Below are positions 36,690-53,530 of a stretch of DNA of 61,866 bases, in pieces. A program made the translations under genes and the position numbers. The notes under the pieces are model-generated. The model was not told where the DNA came from, searched no databases, and saw only the letters and a list, made by a program, of their open reading frames with translations. Source of the DNA: a virus; the IMG/VR virus record IMGVR_UViG_3300042301_001514, positions 1 to 61,866 of that record; one strand, written 5' to 3'. Numbering within the stretch: position 1 is the stretch's first letter; every line of letters begins with the position of its first letter.

Positions 36690-37040
36690 TTATTGTTGTT
36701 TAGCTACATCAATAAACCATTTGATAGCTGCAAGTTCTGCTGCTTCATATGAATCATTGTTTTGTAATAATTGTGTTGTTGGTCCATAGTGTATAACAGC
36801 TATATTTGTTTTACCTATAGAATAAGTGAACTCATACTTCTCTCTGAAGAATCTAAATGCTTGTTGATAAAGTGGTGCTTGTACACAATTATTAATATTA
36901 ATAGAATCATTTCTATATATGAGCCATTTTAACTCTAAATATTCTTCTCCTTCTCCTAAATAATGTGCAGCACACTTCTCATTAAATCCTAGTTCTTTAA
37001 GGTCTAATGATTCTTGATATGGTAAAAATTCTTTTTTCAT
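36690..37040 (-). CDS. hypothetical protein next to PolB
   Basis: The 116-residue protein has LKELGFNEKCAAHYLGEG and QAFRFFREKYEFTYSIG, with SYEAAELAAIKWFIDVAK at the end. Proteins of this pattern are frequent in Bacteroidota phages and plasmids, without known function. It starts on the last base of the PolB stop. Confidence 0.74.
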   Translation of the reverse strand: MKKEFLPYQESLDLKELGFNEKCAAHYLGEGEEYLELKWLIYRNDSININNCVQAPLYQQAFRFFREKYEFTYSIGKTNIAVIHYGPTTQLLQNNDSYEAAELAAIKWFIDVAKQQ

Positions 37041-38992
37041 TAGAATAAATTTAATTGATTTGGATTAACAATAATTTTTCTTTTCTTACCTTCAAGCTGT
37101 ATCTTATATACAATACGCTCAGCACGCTCTATATAATATGCGTGGTTAATGTTATCTAGAGAATGGTCTTTGCTTAGTTTATTACAAACTGTCATTAGCC
37201 ATTCACCTGCTTCCACTTGTGACACATCTGCAGCATTAGTTGTACAATCAGGATTCTTTATCTTTAAGAGCTTTTCTCCTGTATTAGATACATAATAACG
37301 AATCAACTTATTGTACACTGTTCTTTTAGCACCAGCTACACCTTCATAATGAAAGTCTTTGCTAGCCTTTTGCCTTAACGCAAAATCATATATATTATTA
37401 TGATTGGTGATAGTGTCAGCAATAGGTATATTGTGAACAAAATACTGTTCAAGAGCCAAAGGAATAACACGACCAGACTTATTTTTATGAAGCTCAAAAT
37501 CTGTGAGGAAATCGCCTTTCTTTTTAATTTCTCCATTTGTTTTAATTGCTAAATAGTCATTTACTGTTGAGAATATAATCTTAGCATAATCTGTACGCTC
37601 TAGTTCATATGTAGTTAGTTCCATCCACCATTTGTTTAACTCATGCATTTTTTGCAATAGTTCCTTCTTTATCTGAACTGTAACACCATCTGTATTAGCT
37701 GATATAACATGTATACCATTTAATTCATAGGCTTCAATTAGCATAAGTAAACTAAGCTCACCTGTAATAGTGGTGAACATGGTTAGTTGTCTATCATAGA
37801 TCCAGTTTTGCATGTCAGAGCTTTTACCATACACAGAGTTAACTGCTAACTTCAACGCTCCAACAATACCTGCTATCTTCTTATCTTTCTTAGCTAATGG
37901 CTTGAGTTCTAGTCTCTTCTCAAACATCTGTTTGTATCCTCTAAGAAACTCTTTACCTAAATGCTGTGGATAGCGACCATTGTTAATGATAATAGCTGGA
38001 TAGTATGAACTAACATCCCAATCAATAATTTCTACATCTTCATCAGCTTCAAATATCTTGGGCTTGTTCTCTGTATGTAAACCACCCTTAGCAAACGTAT
38101 ATGTATTATCATAGAATACTAATGACTCTTTAAAATCATCAGTGAGCGTAAAGATTTGTTTCTTTATATGCTTTAAGAATCCTTGTAGTTCTGGTGTCTG
38201 GAATGTTACATAATCAGCTATACAGTTTCTAGCTTTAACTTCTTTACGAAAGTATCCTTTCTTTGGTAGTTCACTATATTGTATACCTTTCTCTTGACAA
38301 TAATATTTCTTAATCATTTCATCACCTATCTTACTATCTGAATAGTTAAGACATGGTATGTTAAACTCTTCTTCAATATCTTGTCTGAGCTCTATCTGAT
38401 TGTTATCCTTATATAATGGATGTTCAGTGACACCTGTTGTTACCAAATAGAATTCATAAGTGGCATATATATCATTACGACAGTAATCAATAGTTAGTTC
38501 TATTTCATCATCTGTCATGTTAGTCTTTGTATGATGAATGGGCATCTCTTCAATGTTCTCTAGATCCATCTCAAACTCTAATCTTTTCAATGATACACGT
38601 CTGTTCTTATTATCATAATGATTCACCCTAAACAAATCAATTTGCTTATTAGCTAGCCATTCTTCCCTATATTCTGGGAATACATCATAGTTTGCATCAT
38701 GTATTATATCTGCAGCCTTCTGAGCTATCAATGCACATACATCTAGTGCACCTATTTCATGCCAGTTCTGATGATTGCGTATGATCCACTCAACCACTTG
38801 ACTGTCAAAGCGTAGATTGTTATAACCTACCCAATAGAAGTCTTTGTAGTCTTCTGTCATTCTAACAAAGGCATCAATTTGGTTTGTATTTTTACTCACC
38901 TGGAATTCATGCCATTGCTGTGTTTCAGGATTATATATACAAACTAGAAACAGCTCCTGCATGGTTTCTATATCATAGATGAGTACGTTCAT
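37040..38992 (-). CDS. family B DNA polymerase
   Basis: The 650-residue enzyme has proofreading motifs YDIET (Exo I, ~6), YNNLRFDS (Exo II) and DYCRNDIYATY (Exo III). The polymerase motifs are DVSSYYPAII (A), GALKLAVNSVYGKSSD (B) and SANTDGVTV (C). Motif C carries Asn in place of the first Asp of DTDS. The extreme C-terminus is NQLNLF, a beta-clamp-binding type motif. It is the likely replicative polymerase and probably borrows the host clamp. Confidence 0.93.
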   Translation of the reverse strand: MNVLIYDIETMQELFLVCIYNPETQQWHEFQVSKNTNQIDAFVRMTEDYKDFYWVGYNNLRFDSQVVEWIIRNHQNWHEIGALDVCALIAQKAADIIHDANYDVFPEYREEWLANKQIDLFRVNHYDNKNRRVSLKRLEFEMDLENIEEMPIHHTKTNMTDDEIELTIDYCRNDIYATYEFYLVTTGVTEHPLYKDNNQIELRQDIEEEFNIPCLNYSDSKIGDEMIKKYYCQEKGIQYSELPKKGYFRKEVKARNCIADYVTFQTPELQGFLKHIKKQIFTLTDDFKESLVFYDNTYTFAKGGLHTENKPKIFEADEDVEIIDWDVSSYYPAIIINNGRYPQHLGKEFLRGYKQMFEKRLELKPLAKKDKKIAGIVGALKLAVNSVYGKSSDMQNWIYDRQLTMFTTITGELSLLMLIEAYELNGIHVISANTDGVTVQIKKELLQKMHELNKWWMELTTYELERTDYAKIIFSTVNDYLAIKTNGEIKKKGDFLTDFELHKNKSGRVIPLALEQYFVHNIPIADTITNHNNIYDFALRQKASKDFHYEGVAGAKRTVYNKLIRYYVSNTGEKLLKIKNPDCTTNAADVSQVEAGEWLMTVCNKLSKDHSLDNINHAYYIERAERIVYKIQLEGKKRKIIVNPNQLNLF

Positions 38993-39767: not shown

Positions 39768-40034
39768 TTATTTCTTTTTTGCTGCTTTTGTTGGTGTTTT
39801 AGGCAACTTATTGCTCTTTTTAGAACTATATTTCTCTTTTCCTTCAAGAGCTGTTAGTAATGCAGCACTGAATATTTTAAGCAATTCTTTATCTTCTTCC
39901 ATTACGCTAGCTAATCCAGCACCAAGTCCTGCACCATTTGAATCATCATGATATATAATGTCTACATGATTACCACGTATACTCATAAAGAAATGAGCAT
40001 TCATGTCTTCTACCTTTAATTTACTTTTTGCCAT
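39768..40034 (-). CDS. hypothetical protein
   Basis: The 88-residue protein (MAKSKLKVEDMNAHFFMSIR) has an acidic-helical centre (ASVMEEDKELLKIFSAALL) and a very basic tail (KLPKTPTKAAKKK). It immediately follows the tmRNA in transcription direction. Confidence 0.72.
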   Translation of the reverse strand: MAKSKLKVEDMNAHFFMSIRGNHVDIIYHDDSNGAGLGAGLASVMEEDKELLKIFSAALLTALEGKEKYSSKKSNKLPKTPTKAAKKK

Positions 40035-40060
40035 GTTGTGTTTTTTAATTGTTAATGTTG

Positions 40061-40471
40061 TGGAGGTGAGGGGAGTTGAACCCCTGTCCAGACAAGTGAT
40101 AATAATACCATTCTTACATGCTTAGATCTGAAGCTGTTCATGTACATTTACTTAGAGCAATTACAATGTATTACTACATAGTCCTAAGCACTTCTAATCA
40201 GTAGTTGGGATCGCAGGGTTTGCTATCTACCACCACTCTATTTTGACATAATAGAGAAAACGCTTGTAACTTTCTGTTTCCAGGTTGTTACCACCCAGTT
40301 GACTAAGCAGCTAATGCTAACTCAGAAGCGAAAGCCATAGCAATAATGCTAGCACCTTCTTCAACACGCTCAGATTGACTCTTTACGGTTATTGTTTAGA
40401 ACTTGTTTACCTGTTCCAAGGCTTGCATGTGATACTACCAGCCTCATGTCTGTCAAAGCCAGTACACCCCC
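40061..40471 (-). ncRNA. ssrA: tmRNA (transfer-messenger RNA)
   Basis: The 411-base RNA starts GGGGGTGTACTGGCTTTGACAG at 40471 (first half GGGGGTGTAC, second TGGCTTTGACAG), the bacterial tmRNA 5' end. It closes with a T-arm AGGGGTTCAACTCCCCT and CACCTCC, which pairs with GGGGGTG to form the 7-bp acceptor stem. The discriminator A is at 40061; CCA is not encoded. A tag frame ends at the TAG at 40303-40305. The last residues are ELALAA, typical of tmRNA degradation tags. The tag starts at about AGT 40380 (25 codons, or 23 from TCT 40374), much longer than the 8-15 residues of most bacteria. It lies in a 440-base gene-free gap and is probably cut from the operon transcript, since no own promoter is evident. 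Confidence 0.95.
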
Positions 40472-40472
40472 A

Positions 40473-40637
40473 TTATGTATTTCTATCTAAAGATATATTC
40501 TTACAGAATCTGATTTCTTTATTACTCAATGTCCATATTTCACCATTATCCATGGCACAAGTAAATAGAAGATTATGCTCCTGGCTATAATCTATAACCA
40601 AGAAAGCATAACCTTCCATTCCATCAGAATATCTCAT
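40473..40637 (-). CDS. small protein directly upstream of tmRNA
   Basis: From ATG 40637 the protein has 54 residues (MRYSDGMEGYAFLVIDYSQE); an in-frame ATG at 40670 adds 11 and lengthens the overlap with the preceding gene. It is beta-rich (LLFTCAMDNGEIWTLSNKEI). Its stop is two bases before the tmRNA 5' end. Confidence 0.6.
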   Translation of the reverse strand: MRYSDGMEGYAFLVIDYSQEHNLLFTCAMDNGEIWTLSNKEIRFCKNISLDRNT

Positions 40638-40782
40638 GATAGGTATCATTGGATTCAGTTGAAGAATCATTCTTTTTCTTTTTAATTATGTTGCCATCTT
40701 TATCAATGAATGGAGCCCTATGAAATTCATAGGACATCCATACAATGACAGTTAGCATCACAAAGATAACGATATATATCAT
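40624..40782 (-). CDS. small membrane protein
   Basis: A 52-codon frame from ATG 40782 has one N-terminal hydrophobic helix (MIYIVIFVMLTVIVWM) and a polar, basic and acidic tail. It shares one base with the preceding stop (TAATG). Function unknown. Confidence 0.66.
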   Translation of the reverse strand: MIYIVIFVMLTVIVWMSYEFHRAPFIDKDGNIIKKKKNDSSTESNDTYHEIF

Positions 40783-41005: not shown

Positions 41006-41734
41006 TTATTTTAATTTTGTGAATAATTCTACTAGTTTACCATCTTCTTGTGTAGCCAGTATAAACTCTTTTTTGTTCTTTTTAAGATTTTCTAAGAATT
41101 TAGGATGATTGTATTTACTTGTGTTTCTTACAAACTTAACATACTCTCTACATAAGTATTTGTTTTCCATTCTATTCATTCTAGGAACAACTTTTAATAC
41201 ATCTGTTAGATTGTTTAATATATTAACATTCTTTGCTTCGTCAATTATTTTAAACTCTCCACATTTGATTTTTCTAGTTACATTGCCACCATCTGATATA
41301 TAATTACATAATACAGAAGATAATATACCCATGTCAAAATCATACACTTGATAGTAATGATTAAGCTTTACATAATCAGGAACTAATGAACTCCATGCTG
41401 TAATATAATCAGTTAGAGCCCAGTTTTTAGATGATGCATTTAATAATGCTATCTTCTCTACTAGTTCCACCTTGTCTTTAACAGTGATTGTTACATATGG
41501 AATATCCATATTGTTCCTAATCAATGCATTGAACAAATGCTGACCATCAATGATGTACATTTTCTTTTTACCATCAACAAATGATATCTCAGCTGCTACA
41601 ACAGGTCTAATAATACCCATTTTGTTCACTGAGTTTGCTAATTTAGTCACCTGAGCTGGATTAATAGCTCTGTTAATACCTGCTAGGTAATAAAATGACT
41701 GTTTACTGTCTTTTTTCAATGTTAAGATTTTCAT
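41006..41734 (-). CDS. ParB-like N-terminal domain protein
   Basis: The 242-residue protein has RAINPAQVTKLANSVNKMGI then RPVVAA and MYIIDGQHLFNALIR, the ParB/Srx-type layout R-x-I-x2-x-Q-V...G...P...IDGQHR. Phages use such domains as nucleases, CTPases or DNA-binding regulators. The C-terminal half is helical and unassigned. No parS-like cluster was identified. Confidence 0.78.
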   Translation of the reverse strand: MKILTLKKDSKQSFYYLAGINRAINPAQVTKLANSVNKMGIIRPVVAAEISFVDGKKKMYIIDGQHLFNALIRNNMDIPYVTITVKDKVELVEKIALLNASSKNWALTDYITAWSSLVPDYVKLNHYYQVYDFDMGILSSVLCNYISDGGNVTRKIKCGEFKIIDEAKNVNILNNLTDVLKVVPRMNRMENKYLCREYVKFVRNTSKYNHPKFLENLKKNKKEFILATQEDGKLVELFTKLK

Positions 41735-45047: not shown

Positions 45048-45554
45048 CTACCAAACATCAGATACTGATGCAACATTACTCTTCGCAGGAGCAACAGGCA
45101 TCTTAACCTTAACGCGAGAACCACCTTCTGGATTACTAATGATATACTTAACGACTTGTTCGCCTGTTTCATCACTAATCAAAGGTATTGTATTATCAAT
45201 ATCTTGGAAGATTGGTTGCTCTTGAATTGGATAGTTCAACATATCAGCAAGCTTGATAGACTTGTTACGAAGCTTTGCACTCAATGGACGACTGAACCAC
45301 AATAAACCGTAGTCAGATGTACCTTCATAATTAATTTTAAGAGTGACAGCTTGGTCAGTCTTAACATTCATTACAGGATAGTTAACATTATCACTCAATG
45401 ATAATTCTTCGCTATCTACAAGATAGTCTTGTAATGTGCCTGCCAACACACGCTCTGTGGTGCCGTTAGTTTCAGGTGCATTTCTTCTGATGTTAAAAAT
45501 TGCAGGCTTTTTAGCTACTGCTGTCTTTGCTGTTTTTGTTTGTGGCTGTGCCAT
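45048..45554 (-). CDS. hypothetical protein, first gene of the minus block
   Basis: The 168-residue protein has a basic, Ala/Lys/Thr-rich N-terminus (MAQPQTKTAKTAVAKKPAIF), then a beta-rich region with ETNGTTERVLAGTLQDYLVD and SDNVNYPVMNVKTDQAVTLK. As the gene next to the control region, it is expected to be transcribed earliest. No family was recognised; nucleic-acid or host-protein binding is a guess from position. Confidence 0.72.
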   Translation of the reverse strand: MAQPQTKTAKTAVAKKPAIFNIRRNAPETNGTTERVLAGTLQDYLVDSEELSLSDNVNYPVMNVKTDQAVTLKINYEGTSDYGLLWFSRPLSAKLRNKSIKLADMLNYPIQEQPIFQDIDNTIPLISDETGEQVVKYIISNPEGGSRVKVKMPVAPAKSNVASVSDVW

Positions 45555-45608
45555 AATGTGTTTTTGTTCAGATTGTGTTCTGTTCCCAATGTTTAATTGT
45601 GTCTTTGA

Positions 45609-45668
45609 GACCCCTGGGGGCTACCCCAATCGCTCAAATCACAGGAGGGGTCACCATGTGGAGTAGCC
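45609..45668. promoter_or_regulatory. possible H-type pseudoknot
   Basis: GACCCC (45609-45614) can pair with GGGGTC (45647-45652), and GGCTAC (45619-45624) with GTAGCC (45663-45668). The two stems interleave, which is the layout of a pseudoknot. It lies 55-115 bases upstream of the first minus-strand gene, so it may be in its leader. Confidence 0.45.
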
Positions 45669-46032
45669 TCTCCTCCCATGGATAAGGGGGTTGTAACATC
45701 TAGAAAAAAATTTTGTAAAATAGTTCCACATGGAACCTTGGGTATAATCATCTGAGGACCAATGGCTTAAGTGGCCCCTGTGTTAAATGTTCCATGGCCC
45801 CATGTTAAATGTTTGCATGAATTTTTCCAAATGTTTCATGCACCCATTTTTATACTTACAGTATAAATTGCACCCATAAATTAAACTTTGCCCCCATTTT
45901 TCGTAACAAATAACTATATAAATATGTTACAAGAGTGTCACAGTTTTTCAAATATTTGTGACACACTTCCAGGTTTGGCTGTGTTTCACTTCCTGATTTG
46001 GCAAGTTATAACAAGTCTATATTCTGCCAAAA

Positions 46033-48054: not shown

Positions 48055-48373
48055 AAAAACTACATATATAAACACAGAGCTTGAATGGGCAGAAGCACAG
48101 CTTGTTTCCTGGAAAGCTTATGTAAATGCAAACCCACTACATGAATTGAAAGATAGAATTGAGTGGAAGCCTACAGCTAAAGGAGGAATGTTACCTATGG
48201 TAATAGCTAGTATTGAAGCTCAGGGTAAGTTTGTACAGGAGACAATGAAGAACTACCTTGCTCTAGTAGAAGTGGTAGATAAGCTAAGAAACATGGAAGA
48301 AGCTAAGGTGGAAGTGAGAGGAAAGGGTGAGTTGTCAGGAGCTGCTGCTGAGTTTTTAGCAAATAGAAAATAA
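48041..48373 (+). CDS. small terminase-like protein (tentative)
   Basis: The 110-residue protein (MATIKKTTYINTELEWAEAQ) is helical with a basic N-terminus and a coiled-coil-like centre (KFVQETMKNYLALVEVVDKL). It starts one base before the large terminase and shares TAATG spacing. Small terminase subunits are often of this size and position, but no HTH motif proves it. Confidence 0.55.
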   Translation: MATIKKTTYINTELEWAEAQLVSWKAYVNANPLHELKDRIEWKPTAKGGMLPMVIASIEAQGKFVQETMKNYLALVEVVDKLRNMEEAKVEVRGKGELSGAAAEFLANRK

Positions 48374-50415
48374 TGATTGAACTACAAAACATAGATTACA
48401 AAGATTGGTTCATAAATCAGAAACGTATTCCTGATAAGGAATCTGCTGAATGTAAACCGTTCTTTGATTTCCATAGAGAATTATGTTTAAATGGTGCTAT
48501 GATGGGGGGTGTGTATATCAACCCCTTTTTATATTGGCACCTAAATATATGGCACACTGAGGTGGATGTCATAGATGATAGAGGAAGAATTGCACAAAAA
48601 TATGCTAATCCGTTTTTAAGAGATAATGAGTGGCTGGTAACAAACGAAATTGATAGAGCCCAACAGGAAAAAAAGGGCTTGGTTATTCTAGGTATTAGAC
48701 GTTTTGCTAAATCCGTTCTTGAAGCATCCTATATTGCATGGGGTGCAACATTTGATGAGAACTCCCAGAATATTATTGCTGGTTTGAATGCACCAGATAT
48801 AAAACTTATTACGGATAAAATAGATAAAGGATTAAACTTTATCCCTGAGTATTGGAGATGGCAGAGAATTGAGGATAACTGGAAAAACCAGGTCACATTA
48901 GGTATTAAAACCAAATCTGGTGAACGTATCCCATTCTCTTCCATTCTGATACGTAACCTTGATGAAGGTAATAATGAAGAAGCAATTGCAGGTACAAAAC
49001 CACGTAAATTAATTATAGATGAGATTGGTAAAGGAAATTTTCTTAGAGGTTTACAGGCGGCTATACCAGGTTTCACTACACCCTATGGTTGGGGATGTTC
49101 TCCAATTCTCACAGGCACTGGTGGTGATATGAAGAAATTTCAGGATGCAAAATCCCTGATGTTTGACGTAGACAACTTTAATTTCCTTACATATAATAAT
49201 GCAAAAGATGATAAGCGTATACATGGCTTATTCATCCCAGCTAAATATAGAATGGAAGCTAAAGAGAAATCTACATTAGGAGCTTTCTTAAATGAGCCTA
49301 CTGGATCAGACTTATATAACGTTGAAATGTTAGTGGGTGATGAGGAAAGAGCTAAAGAGATTACAGAGAAGAACCTAGAAAGACTTAAAAAGGCTGGAGA
49401 TAGAATTGCTTATTTGAAGGAGAAGATGTACTACCCAATGGAGGTGGATGATATCTTCTTGAATGAGGATACAAACATCTTTGATATTGAATCAGCTAAG
49501 AGACAGAAAACCAGACTGTTACAACAAGAAAGAACAGGAACTCCTGTTACATTGTTCTCTGGAGAAAATGGTATTGAGCATGAGTTTACAGACAAGCTTC
49601 CTATATCTAACTTTCCATTAAAGAACAGTGATACAAAAGATGCTCCTATAGTTATATATGAATTCCCTGTAGAAAACCCTCCTTATGGATTGTATGTAGC
49701 AGGAGTTGACCCTTATAGACAAGGTAAGTCTGTGTATTCAAGTTCACTTGGTTCTGTATTCATATATAAAAGAATGCATGAAATTAGTGGTGAGAAGTAT
49801 CAAGATATGTTCGTAGCTTCGTATTGTGCAAGACCTGATAAGAAAGAGATTTGGGAAGAACAAGCTAGACTTCTTATTAAGTATTACAATGCAAGAACAC
49901 TGTGTGAGAATGATGATATATCATTTATAGAATATATGAAGGCCAAAGGGGATGCTCACTATTTAGAGAAACAACCTGAATGGCTTAAAGAAATTGTTCC
50001 AAACACAACAGTTAAAAGAGATTATGGAATTCATCGTTCAAGTGACAAAATAATTGAGTATCTTCACACCTGCTTAAAGAAGTATATGGAGTCTGTGATA
50101 TTCAAAGAAACAAATGAGGCTGGTGATACTATAAGAGAAGTTCTAGGGGTGAGTAAGATATTTGATCCTGTATTGCTTGAAGAGATTATACAATACAATG
50201 ATTCAGGTAACTTTGATAGAATCATTGCTGCAGAGTTAGCCATTGCACAAGCATTAAAGATGGACCCTATTATGGGTAAGATTGGTGGAACATCTGATGA
50301 TAGAGTGAAGGCAATGTTTAGTAAGAAGAAAGGAAACGTACTGTTTACAGAATCAAGAGGTGGGATGTTTGGAACCTCTCATAATAAATATAAAAGAAAT
50401 AAATTGTTTACATAA
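48373..50415 (+). CDS. terL: large terminase subunit (TerL)
   Basis: The 680-residue packaging motor has the ATPase motif VILGIRRFAKSVL (deviant Walker A, ~98-110), KLIIDEIGKG (Walker B, ~216-225) and a C-terminal RNase-H-like nuclease with VAGVDPYRQGKS, LCENDDISFIEYM and FDRIIAAELAIAQAL providing acidic residues. It translocates DNA through the portal and cuts concatemers. Length is typical of crAss-like TerL. Confidence 0.93.
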   Translation: MIELQNIDYKDWFINQKRIPDKESAECKPFFDFHRELCLNGAMMGGVYINPFLYWHLNIWHTEVDVIDDRGRIAQKYANPFLRDNEWLVTNEIDRAQQEKKGLVILGIRRFAKSVLEASYIAWGATFDENSQNIIAGLNAPDIKLITDKIDKGLNFIPEYWRWQRIEDNWKNQVTLGIKTKSGERIPFSSILIRNLDEGNNEEAIAGTKPRKLIIDEIGKGNFLRGLQAAIPGFTTPYGWGCSPILTGTGGDMKKFQDAKSLMFDVDNFNFLTYNNAKDDKRIHGLFIPAKYRMEAKEKSTLGAFLNEPTGSDLYNVEMLVGDEERAKEITEKNLERLKKAGDRIAYLKEKMYYPMEVDDIFLNEDTNIFDIESAKRQKTRLLQQERTGTPVTLFSGENGIEHEFTDKLPISNFPLKNSDTKDAPIVIYEFPVENPPYGLYVAGVDPYRQGKSVYSSSLGSVFIYKRMHEISGEKYQDMFVASYCARPDKKEIWEEQARLLIKYYNARTLCENDDISFIEYMKAKGDAHYLEKQPEWLKEIVPNTTVKRDYGIHRSSDKIIEYLHTCLKKYMESVIFKETNEAGDTIREVLGVSKIFDPVLLEEIIQYNDSGNFDRIIAAELAIAQALKMDPIMGKIGGTSDDRVKAMFSKKKGNVLFTESRGGMFGTSHNKYKRNKLFT

Positions 50416-52999: not shown

Positions 53000-53530
53000 A
53001 TGTTTGATAAACTGATTGAGATTATATCTAATTGGTGGTTACAACTAACCCCAATAATTATAATAAGAGATTACGAGAAAGCTGTATTACTTAGGTTTGG
53101 AAAATTTAAAAAAGTTCTTGAACCTGGAATACATTTGAAAATTCCAATGTTTGACGAGGTGATTGACCAGCATGTTGTCACTACAACATTAAGTCTTGAT
53201 GCACAATCTTTGTATACAGCAGATAAACAGAATATTGTTGTGAAAGGATTGATTAAATATAAGATAGCTGACGTTAAAATATTCTTATTAGAAGTTTGGG
53301 ATGCTCAAGATGCTATATCAGATATGGCACAAGCTATCATTAAAAATGTCATTATGTCTATGACATTAGATGAGTGTACAGATGCTGAAATTGATAACAC
53401 TCTTACTAAGAAAGTGAGGGTGGAAGCTAAGAAGTGGGGGGTTGAAGTTCAACAAGTTACACTCACTGACCTAGCTCCAATAAGAAGCATTAGACTTATA
53501 AATGACAACTTTATTAATAAATTAGATTAG
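53000..53530 (+). CDS. SPFH/band-7 (stomatin-like) protein in head module
   Basis: The 176-residue protein has a hydrophobic N-terminus (~8-23) and band-7 features: VLLRFGKFKKVLEPGIHLKI, SLDAQSLYTADKQNIVVKG and YKIADVKIFLLEV, ending with an SPFH-type tail helix. Host stomatins form membrane cages; why one is in a capsid operon is unclear. It could be a membrane or ejection factor. It starts three bases after the portal gene. Confidence 0.8.
   Translation: MFDKLIEIISNWWLQLTPIIIIRDYEKAVLLRFGKFKKVLEPGIHLKIPMFDEVIDQHVVTTTLSLDAQSLYTADKQNIVVKGLIKYKIADVKIFLLEVWDAQDAISDMAQAIIKNVIMSMTLDECTDAEIDNTLTKKVRVEAKKWGVEVQQVTLTDLAPIRSIRLINDNFINKLD

Follow-up and report, generated by a model that had tools for sequence, protein, structure and literature searches.

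A phage tmRNA gene with a 27-residue tag in a virus contig apparently near the crAss-like phages, and types of long tags among its relatives

The window, by which the whole stretch of DNA analysed is meant (a virus contig of 61,866 bases from IMG/VR, where it is classed as linear), carries a complete one-piece tmRNA gene whose tag peptide has about three times as many residues as a usual host tag, the tags of the window and its relatives being two to four times as long as those of hosts. The gene very probably encodes a functional phage tmRNA, which would rescue ribosomes together with host SmpB and mark the released products for proteolysis, the extension of the tag presumably altering their handling. 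Long tags of three mutually unrelated types were recognised in viral contigs: type A of 26-27 aa, to which the window belongs, type B of 23-25 aa and type C of about 33-36 aa. It is possible, and proposed here tentatively, that phages of Bacteroidota possess a distinct class of tmRNAs in which tags of 23-36 aa are swapped as peptide cassettes while the body is kept, the phage controlling in this way the fate of stalled products.

The gene was called by ARAGORN as one tmRNA at 40060-40471 (-) with the tag VKSQSERVEEGASIIAMAFASELALAA*, the sole RNA gene that was called in the window, where no tRNA genes were found by the same program. Rfam cmscan aligned the RF00023 model in full (1-374) to positions 40058-40471(-) with 88 bits (E=8e-33) against a gathering cut-off of 47 bits, with low posterior probability across the middle of the alignment. 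The covariance score and the conservation of the gene in relatives rule out a chance call. An earlier note, made from the letters of this DNA, had placed a complete tmRNA gene at 40061-40471; this span proved exact, the minus strand is added here, and the covariance search which that note had suggested as a check thus returned a score well over the threshold. CCA is not encoded, and CAA (40058-40060) follows the discriminator A.

The pairing of GGGGGTG with CACCTCC at the two ends, as well as the canonical T-arm described in the same note, were found intact (7/7 acceptor pairs; 5/5 pairs of the T-stem AGGGG/CCCCT). The acceptor stem contains the G3.U70 pair, the alanine identity pair of tRNA-Ala and tmRNA, and its third pair is G.U in 6/6 aligned relatives. 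A long P2 helix, paired and supported by two-sided changes, stands in place of the anticodon arm. In the alignment of six relatives analysed by RNAalifold, which gives nested pairs without the four pseudoknots of tmRNA, two-sided compensatory changes were present in 18 of 96 consensus pairs, including pairs of the acceptor, P2 and T-stem; for example, the acceptor of the relative L092 shows changes from G-C to C-G and from U-A to C-G. Among the distinct tmRNAs that bear a tag of either type A or type B (n=51), the acceptor is fully paired (7/7) in 46, the T-stem (5/5) in all 51 and G3.U70 is present in 48, while at least seven compensated versions of the acceptor stem occur. The T-arm pattern has matches across many phyla among the matches listed.

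Table 1. Features of the tmRNA locus and landmark genes of the window
Feature	Position	Strand	Evidence or remark
tmRNA gene, one-piece, mature 411 nt without CCA	40061..40471	-	ARAGORN; RF00023; covariation in relatives
Acceptor stem, 5' strand GGGGGTG	40465..40471	-	7/7 pairs; contains G3 of G3.U70
Acceptor stem, 3' strand CACCTCC	40062..40068	-	Sequence
Discriminator A	40061	-	Sequence
T-arm AGGGG-TTCAACT-CCCCT	40069..40085	-	5/5 stem pairs; compensatory change in L043
P2 helix, 5' side, junction of tRNA-like and mRNA-like domains	40425..40452	-	RNAalifold, two-sided changes
P2 helix, 3' side, including CTAAGCATGTA	40089..40121	-	RNAalifold
Tag frame: GTA resume codon, 27 codons VKSQSERVEEGASIIAMAFASELALAA, TAG stop; AACAATAACC before	40303..40386	-	ARAGORN
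65-aa ORF, ending (stop included) 1 nt before tmRNA 5' end	40473..40670	-	ORF list
88-aa ORF, starting 26 nt past tmRNA 3' end	39768..40034	-	ORF list
Family-B DNA polymerase, landmark of the slot	37040..38992	-	PHROG 1252, E=2e-140
ParB-like protein, upstream of tmRNA	41006..41734	-	PHROG 12305, E=5e-14; Pfam ParB_N weak, sub-cut-off
Terminase large subunit, near crAss-like phages	48373..50415	+	PHROG 6681, E=1e-86

The tag occupies positions 86-169 of the tmRNA gene, its start being aligned to the consensus resume codon of RF00023. In host tmRNAs the resume position mostly lies at 82-99; the resume codon of the window is thus as far from the 5' end as is usual, and a misplaced start does not account for the length of the tag. 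The frame ends in ELALAA and TAG, as had been read earlier, and this end is seen in the ARAGORN tag; what the earlier interpretation overlooked was the length of the tag, its phage specificity in the searches described below and its membership of a set of long tags, while its central part, a complete phage tmRNA distinct from the host ssrA, stands. Among sampled tmRNAs of Bacteroidota hosts, 66 of 68 have tags of 9-10 aa with a maximum of 19, further host tags from a separate search are of 8-19 aa (n=102), and the commonest tmRNA tag length in a 2025 database paper is 10 (PMC11915505). The type-A signature was found in 11 viral contigs and in 0 of 84,980 bacterial and archaeal species genomes, so that in the searches made the type-A tag is phage-specific. 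A tag-blind scan of viral tmRNAs gave about 17 of 84 tags of at least 20 aa, compared with 0 of 170 host tags (Fisher p = 2e-9), a comparison that may include some erroneous tag calls and that draws on host sets not sampled at random.

Two relatives (L043 and L045) have a tmRNA in the same slot as the window, with a tag of type B instead of type A. The type-B pattern, built on these tags and two similar ones, was found in 84 viral contigs, nearly all of the matches lying inside a recognisable tmRNA, and the number expected by chance was estimated to be below 1. The tag reads (D/A)VELSTMTFEDAM(A/S)FVGADYAVAA or close variants. The contigs are up to 294 kb in length, and many of them belong to unrelated and to jumbo phages; among the tested records with a type-B tag from outside the clade, none has a match to the window terminase, and the type A and B loci together form 16 clusters by flanking DNA. 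A search of 396 Bacteroidota genomes gave no match to the pattern, and the peptide had none by tblastn in cultured phages. A short blastn match led to the tmRNA of Mycobacterium phage PegLeg (L508:375-777), the tag of which, translated as AAFVDADYAVAA, is near the type-B end AFVGADYAVAA, yet the host is actinobacterial. The type-C pattern (for example, GKNNSRVVALGANAQIEANMNKVFSLLREEVAVAA) was found in 72 contigs, all with short frames, the complete ones ending in AA or VA, and in most of the type-C records tested the terminase shares 78-82% identity with that of the window. As types A, B and C occur within it, one phage clade holds three unrelated long tags. Of the 73 distinct tag DNAs, 70 encode a C-terminal AA. 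Other long tags of 20-31 aa, unrelated to A, B and C, were observed in tmRNAs of five further viral contigs (L131, L144, L153, L193 and L202).

Selection on the tag was assessed by pN/pS measured in the tag regions that were not fixed by the search patterns. The ratio was 0.24 for type B (main length class) and 0.37-0.59 for type A, and since these values are below 1, the tags of both types are under selection at the peptide level. The values for type C are mixed (0.38-1.44), and a peptide constraint is not evident from them. The tag may also be replaced as a unit: of the 411 positions of the tmRNA gene, 23 are different between the window and L003, and 19 of these 23 are inside the 84-nt tag (Fisher p = 6e-11), while the tags of L003 and L092 are 98% identical and their tmRNA bodies 86-91%. 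The simplest reading is that the tag segment was replaced by recombination between related phages; fast divergence is a less likely cause, as another phage (L092) has a tag that matches the replaced one of L003.

All neighbours of the tmRNA are on its strand, and the DNA polymerase, a DnaB-like helicase and RecA are encoded downstream, so the setting within a replication operon that had been proposed for it holds broadly, with small genes without assigned function, as well as the ParB-like gene, directly adjoining the tmRNA. The end of the 65-aa ORF, 1 nt from the tmRNA, suggests co-transcription in an operon followed by 5' processing. This ORF is kept beside the tmRNA in L003, L006, L095 and L097, and the 88-aa ORF on the other side in L003, L004, L006, L095 and L097. 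Scans for promoters and terminators near the tmRNA gave results at chance level.

The terminase, portal and capsid proteins match PHROG phage families, and by these matches the phage appears to be near the crAss-like phages. The terminase shows 33-40% identity to those of Cellulophaga phage phi17:2 and Leptolyngbya phage Lbo-JY46, and TerL comparison gave 25-33% identity to crAss and Cellulophaga phages, gut crAss-like phages being more distant. Lbo-JY46 (L222), the nearest cultured relative by terminase, has a cyanobacterium recorded as its host; most of the other matches infect Bacteroidota. Between the portal and capsid genes, the product of 53000-53530(+) resembles by eye a prohibitin/SPFH-domain protein, the PHROG annotation being lipoprotein. 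None of the 39 genes examined (at least 130 codons) is preceded by a Shine-Dalgarno-like motif, and A is found at -3 in 77%; in control viral loci with short-tag tmRNAs the motif occurs in 42%. Starts without the motif and with A at -3 are typical of Bacteroidota, and this start pattern suggests that the host of the phage is probably a member of Bacteroidota. A host ssrA or an assembly chimera was considered and excluded by the virus hallmark genes and by the occurrence of the same slot in relatives from other metagenomes; the reading of the earlier note, that this is a phage gene, agrees with the IMG/VR virus contig and with relatives in other metagenomes having the same gene.

With the DNA polymerase as query, 80 related loci were recovered. 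Of 47 relative records, 8 contain a tmRNA scoring above the cut-off, which lies upstream of the polymerase and on its strand. On the polymerase tree its distribution is patchy, with the type-A tag at two separate places. The tmRNA is phage-borne, mobile or often lost, and not essential to the clade; being absent from most of the records, it is dispensable in many of these phages. One relative (L046:1640-1860), the DNA polymerase of which is identical to that of L045, has a tmRNA copy with its ends kept and the tag and nearby sequence deleted. This copy is reminiscent of phage DS6A, whose tag-less tmRNA reportedly inhibits the host tmRNA. The window tmRNA had no blastn match among 50,697 cultured-phage records, and in phi17:2 and Lbo-JY46 the matches were short and limited to the T-arm, no tmRNA scoring above the cut-off. 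No SmpB was found in the window, nor any over the threshold in relatives of up to 118 kb, and therefore a host SmpB would be needed as partner. A sub-threshold SmpB-like match with several stops, mostly TAG, is present in a relative without a tmRNA match (L054, 107526-107783(-)), and an intact SmpB (45458-45868(-), 146 bits) is encoded in a 294-kb phage with a type-B tag (records L456/L497).

Ribosome rescue by the window tmRNA is well grounded in tmRNA biology, and trans-translation with host SmpB appears by far the likeliest function because both the tRNA-like domain and the tag frame are intact; the redirection of host proteins to degradation, which the earlier note also suggested, is a hypothetical role. 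As part of the operon transcript, the RNA would be matured by RNase P and 3' nucleases of the host and would receive CCA and then alanine. Together with host SmpB and EF-Tu, it would in the course of infection reach ribosomes that have stalled on truncated or broken messages. These ribosomes would switch to the phage tag frame and end at its own stop, being freed in this way, and the stalled product would gain Ala and the 27-residue phage tag. As the AA end is kept, phage tags should stay ClpXP substrates, and the C-terminal ALAA may still be readable by ClpXP-type proteases. The phage-specific segment before ALAA probably serves as a second recognition element, for an adaptor or a further protease, for instance Lon, or might alter the speed of degradation. 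Altered or added protease recognition is the best-grounded idea for this segment, because the longer tag of Mesoplasma mf-ssrA is a substrate of Lon instead of ClpXP (PMC9382460).

The phage might, on the other hand, carry just a spare tmRNA, adding rescue capacity or replacing a host tmRNA lost through defence, with a neutral long tag of which only the last residues matter. This is possible but somewhat doubtful: the near-universal C-terminal AA, the wholly different tags of close relatives, as if the tag were mostly free to vary, and the little peptide constraint of type C in places are consistent with it, whereas the interior S, T, F, E, D, M, F, V and G of the type-B tag are near-invariant across many unrelated phage lineages, with synonymous change beside these residues and the low pN/pS given above, and tags of at least 20 aa are confined to the viral side of the tag-blind comparison. 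That the peptide, produced in quantity on stalled products, is rather an effector binding a host factor such as a protease adaptor or a defence protein, with an arms race driving the exchange, is unlikely. Such a role would fit the phage specificity, the presence of three unrelated long tags in a single clade and the swapping of tags in tmRNA bodies that are almost identical, but the binding partner and motif are hypothetical, and the exchanges are explicable by recombination without selection.

Conservation of the tag might also act at the RNA level, the segment folding into the tmRNA structure with the peptide unselected. Although alifold pairs run through the tag, they are often broken in L043, unlike those of the acceptor, T-stem and P2; in tags A and B most changes are at third codon positions, and every scanned tag frame remains open up to a stop codon preceded by AA or a near variant of it, which makes this reading improbable. 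It is highly improbable that the gene is a degenerate passenger or an attachment-site remnant of a host ssrA, as suggested by the integration of some prophages at ssrA and by the deleted copy in L046, given that its paired structure is complete and its tag open, that no host genes surround it and relatives have the same slot, and that the tag signature is absent from the sampled hosts.

If the tag, beyond rescue capacity, is the contribution of the phage, phages would reprogram the peptide put on stalled products. The tags, recognised in over 160 contigs of uncultured phages, are in addition candidates for degradation signals in Bacteroidota. The view that only a few phage copies of tmRNA are known, taken in the earlier note, is outdated, as a 2022 survey reported tmRNA in 402 of 18,146 phage genomes (PMC9004378), and in mycobacteriophage Wildcat the tmRNA is the most highly expressed lytic gene (PMC7474061). 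In the open-licence literature, neither families of long tags nor an exchange of tags was found to have been described before, which suggests that, while phage tmRNAs and the long tag of Bxz1-type phages are already known, the families and the exchange are seemingly unreported.

The window tmRNA is similar to the bacterial one-piece ssrA (RF00023) in its G3.U70 acceptor, T-arm, P2, resume position at about 86 nt and ALAA followed by a stop, and differs in being phage-borne, in a tag of 27 aa versus 9-10 in Bacteroidota and in the resume codon GUA. The Bxz1-type tmRNA, represented by phage ET08, is likewise a one-piece tmRNA of a phage, its long tag having 25 aa (ATDTDATVTDAEIEAFFAEEAAALV), but it belongs to a phage of an actinobacterial host and is located in a tRNA cluster, whereas the window has no tRNA genes; by eye, the ET08 tag shares no evident sequence with that of the window. 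Melnitz and pelagiphages are also aquatic phages with a complete ssrA, although their tmRNA is two-piece permuted and under a glutamine riboswitch (PMC9004378). Huge phages encode both tmRNA and SmpB (PMC7162821) and are thus similar in carrying rescue genes, while the window and the tested relatives of its clade have no above-threshold SmpB. The mf-ssrA of Mesoplasma florum has in common with the window a tag longer than standard, yet it ends in NYAFA rather than ALAA, its host has no ClpXP and there is no evident sequence similarity; recognition of the window tag by Lon is an idea only, for which mf-ssrA may serve as a precedent of a change of protease.
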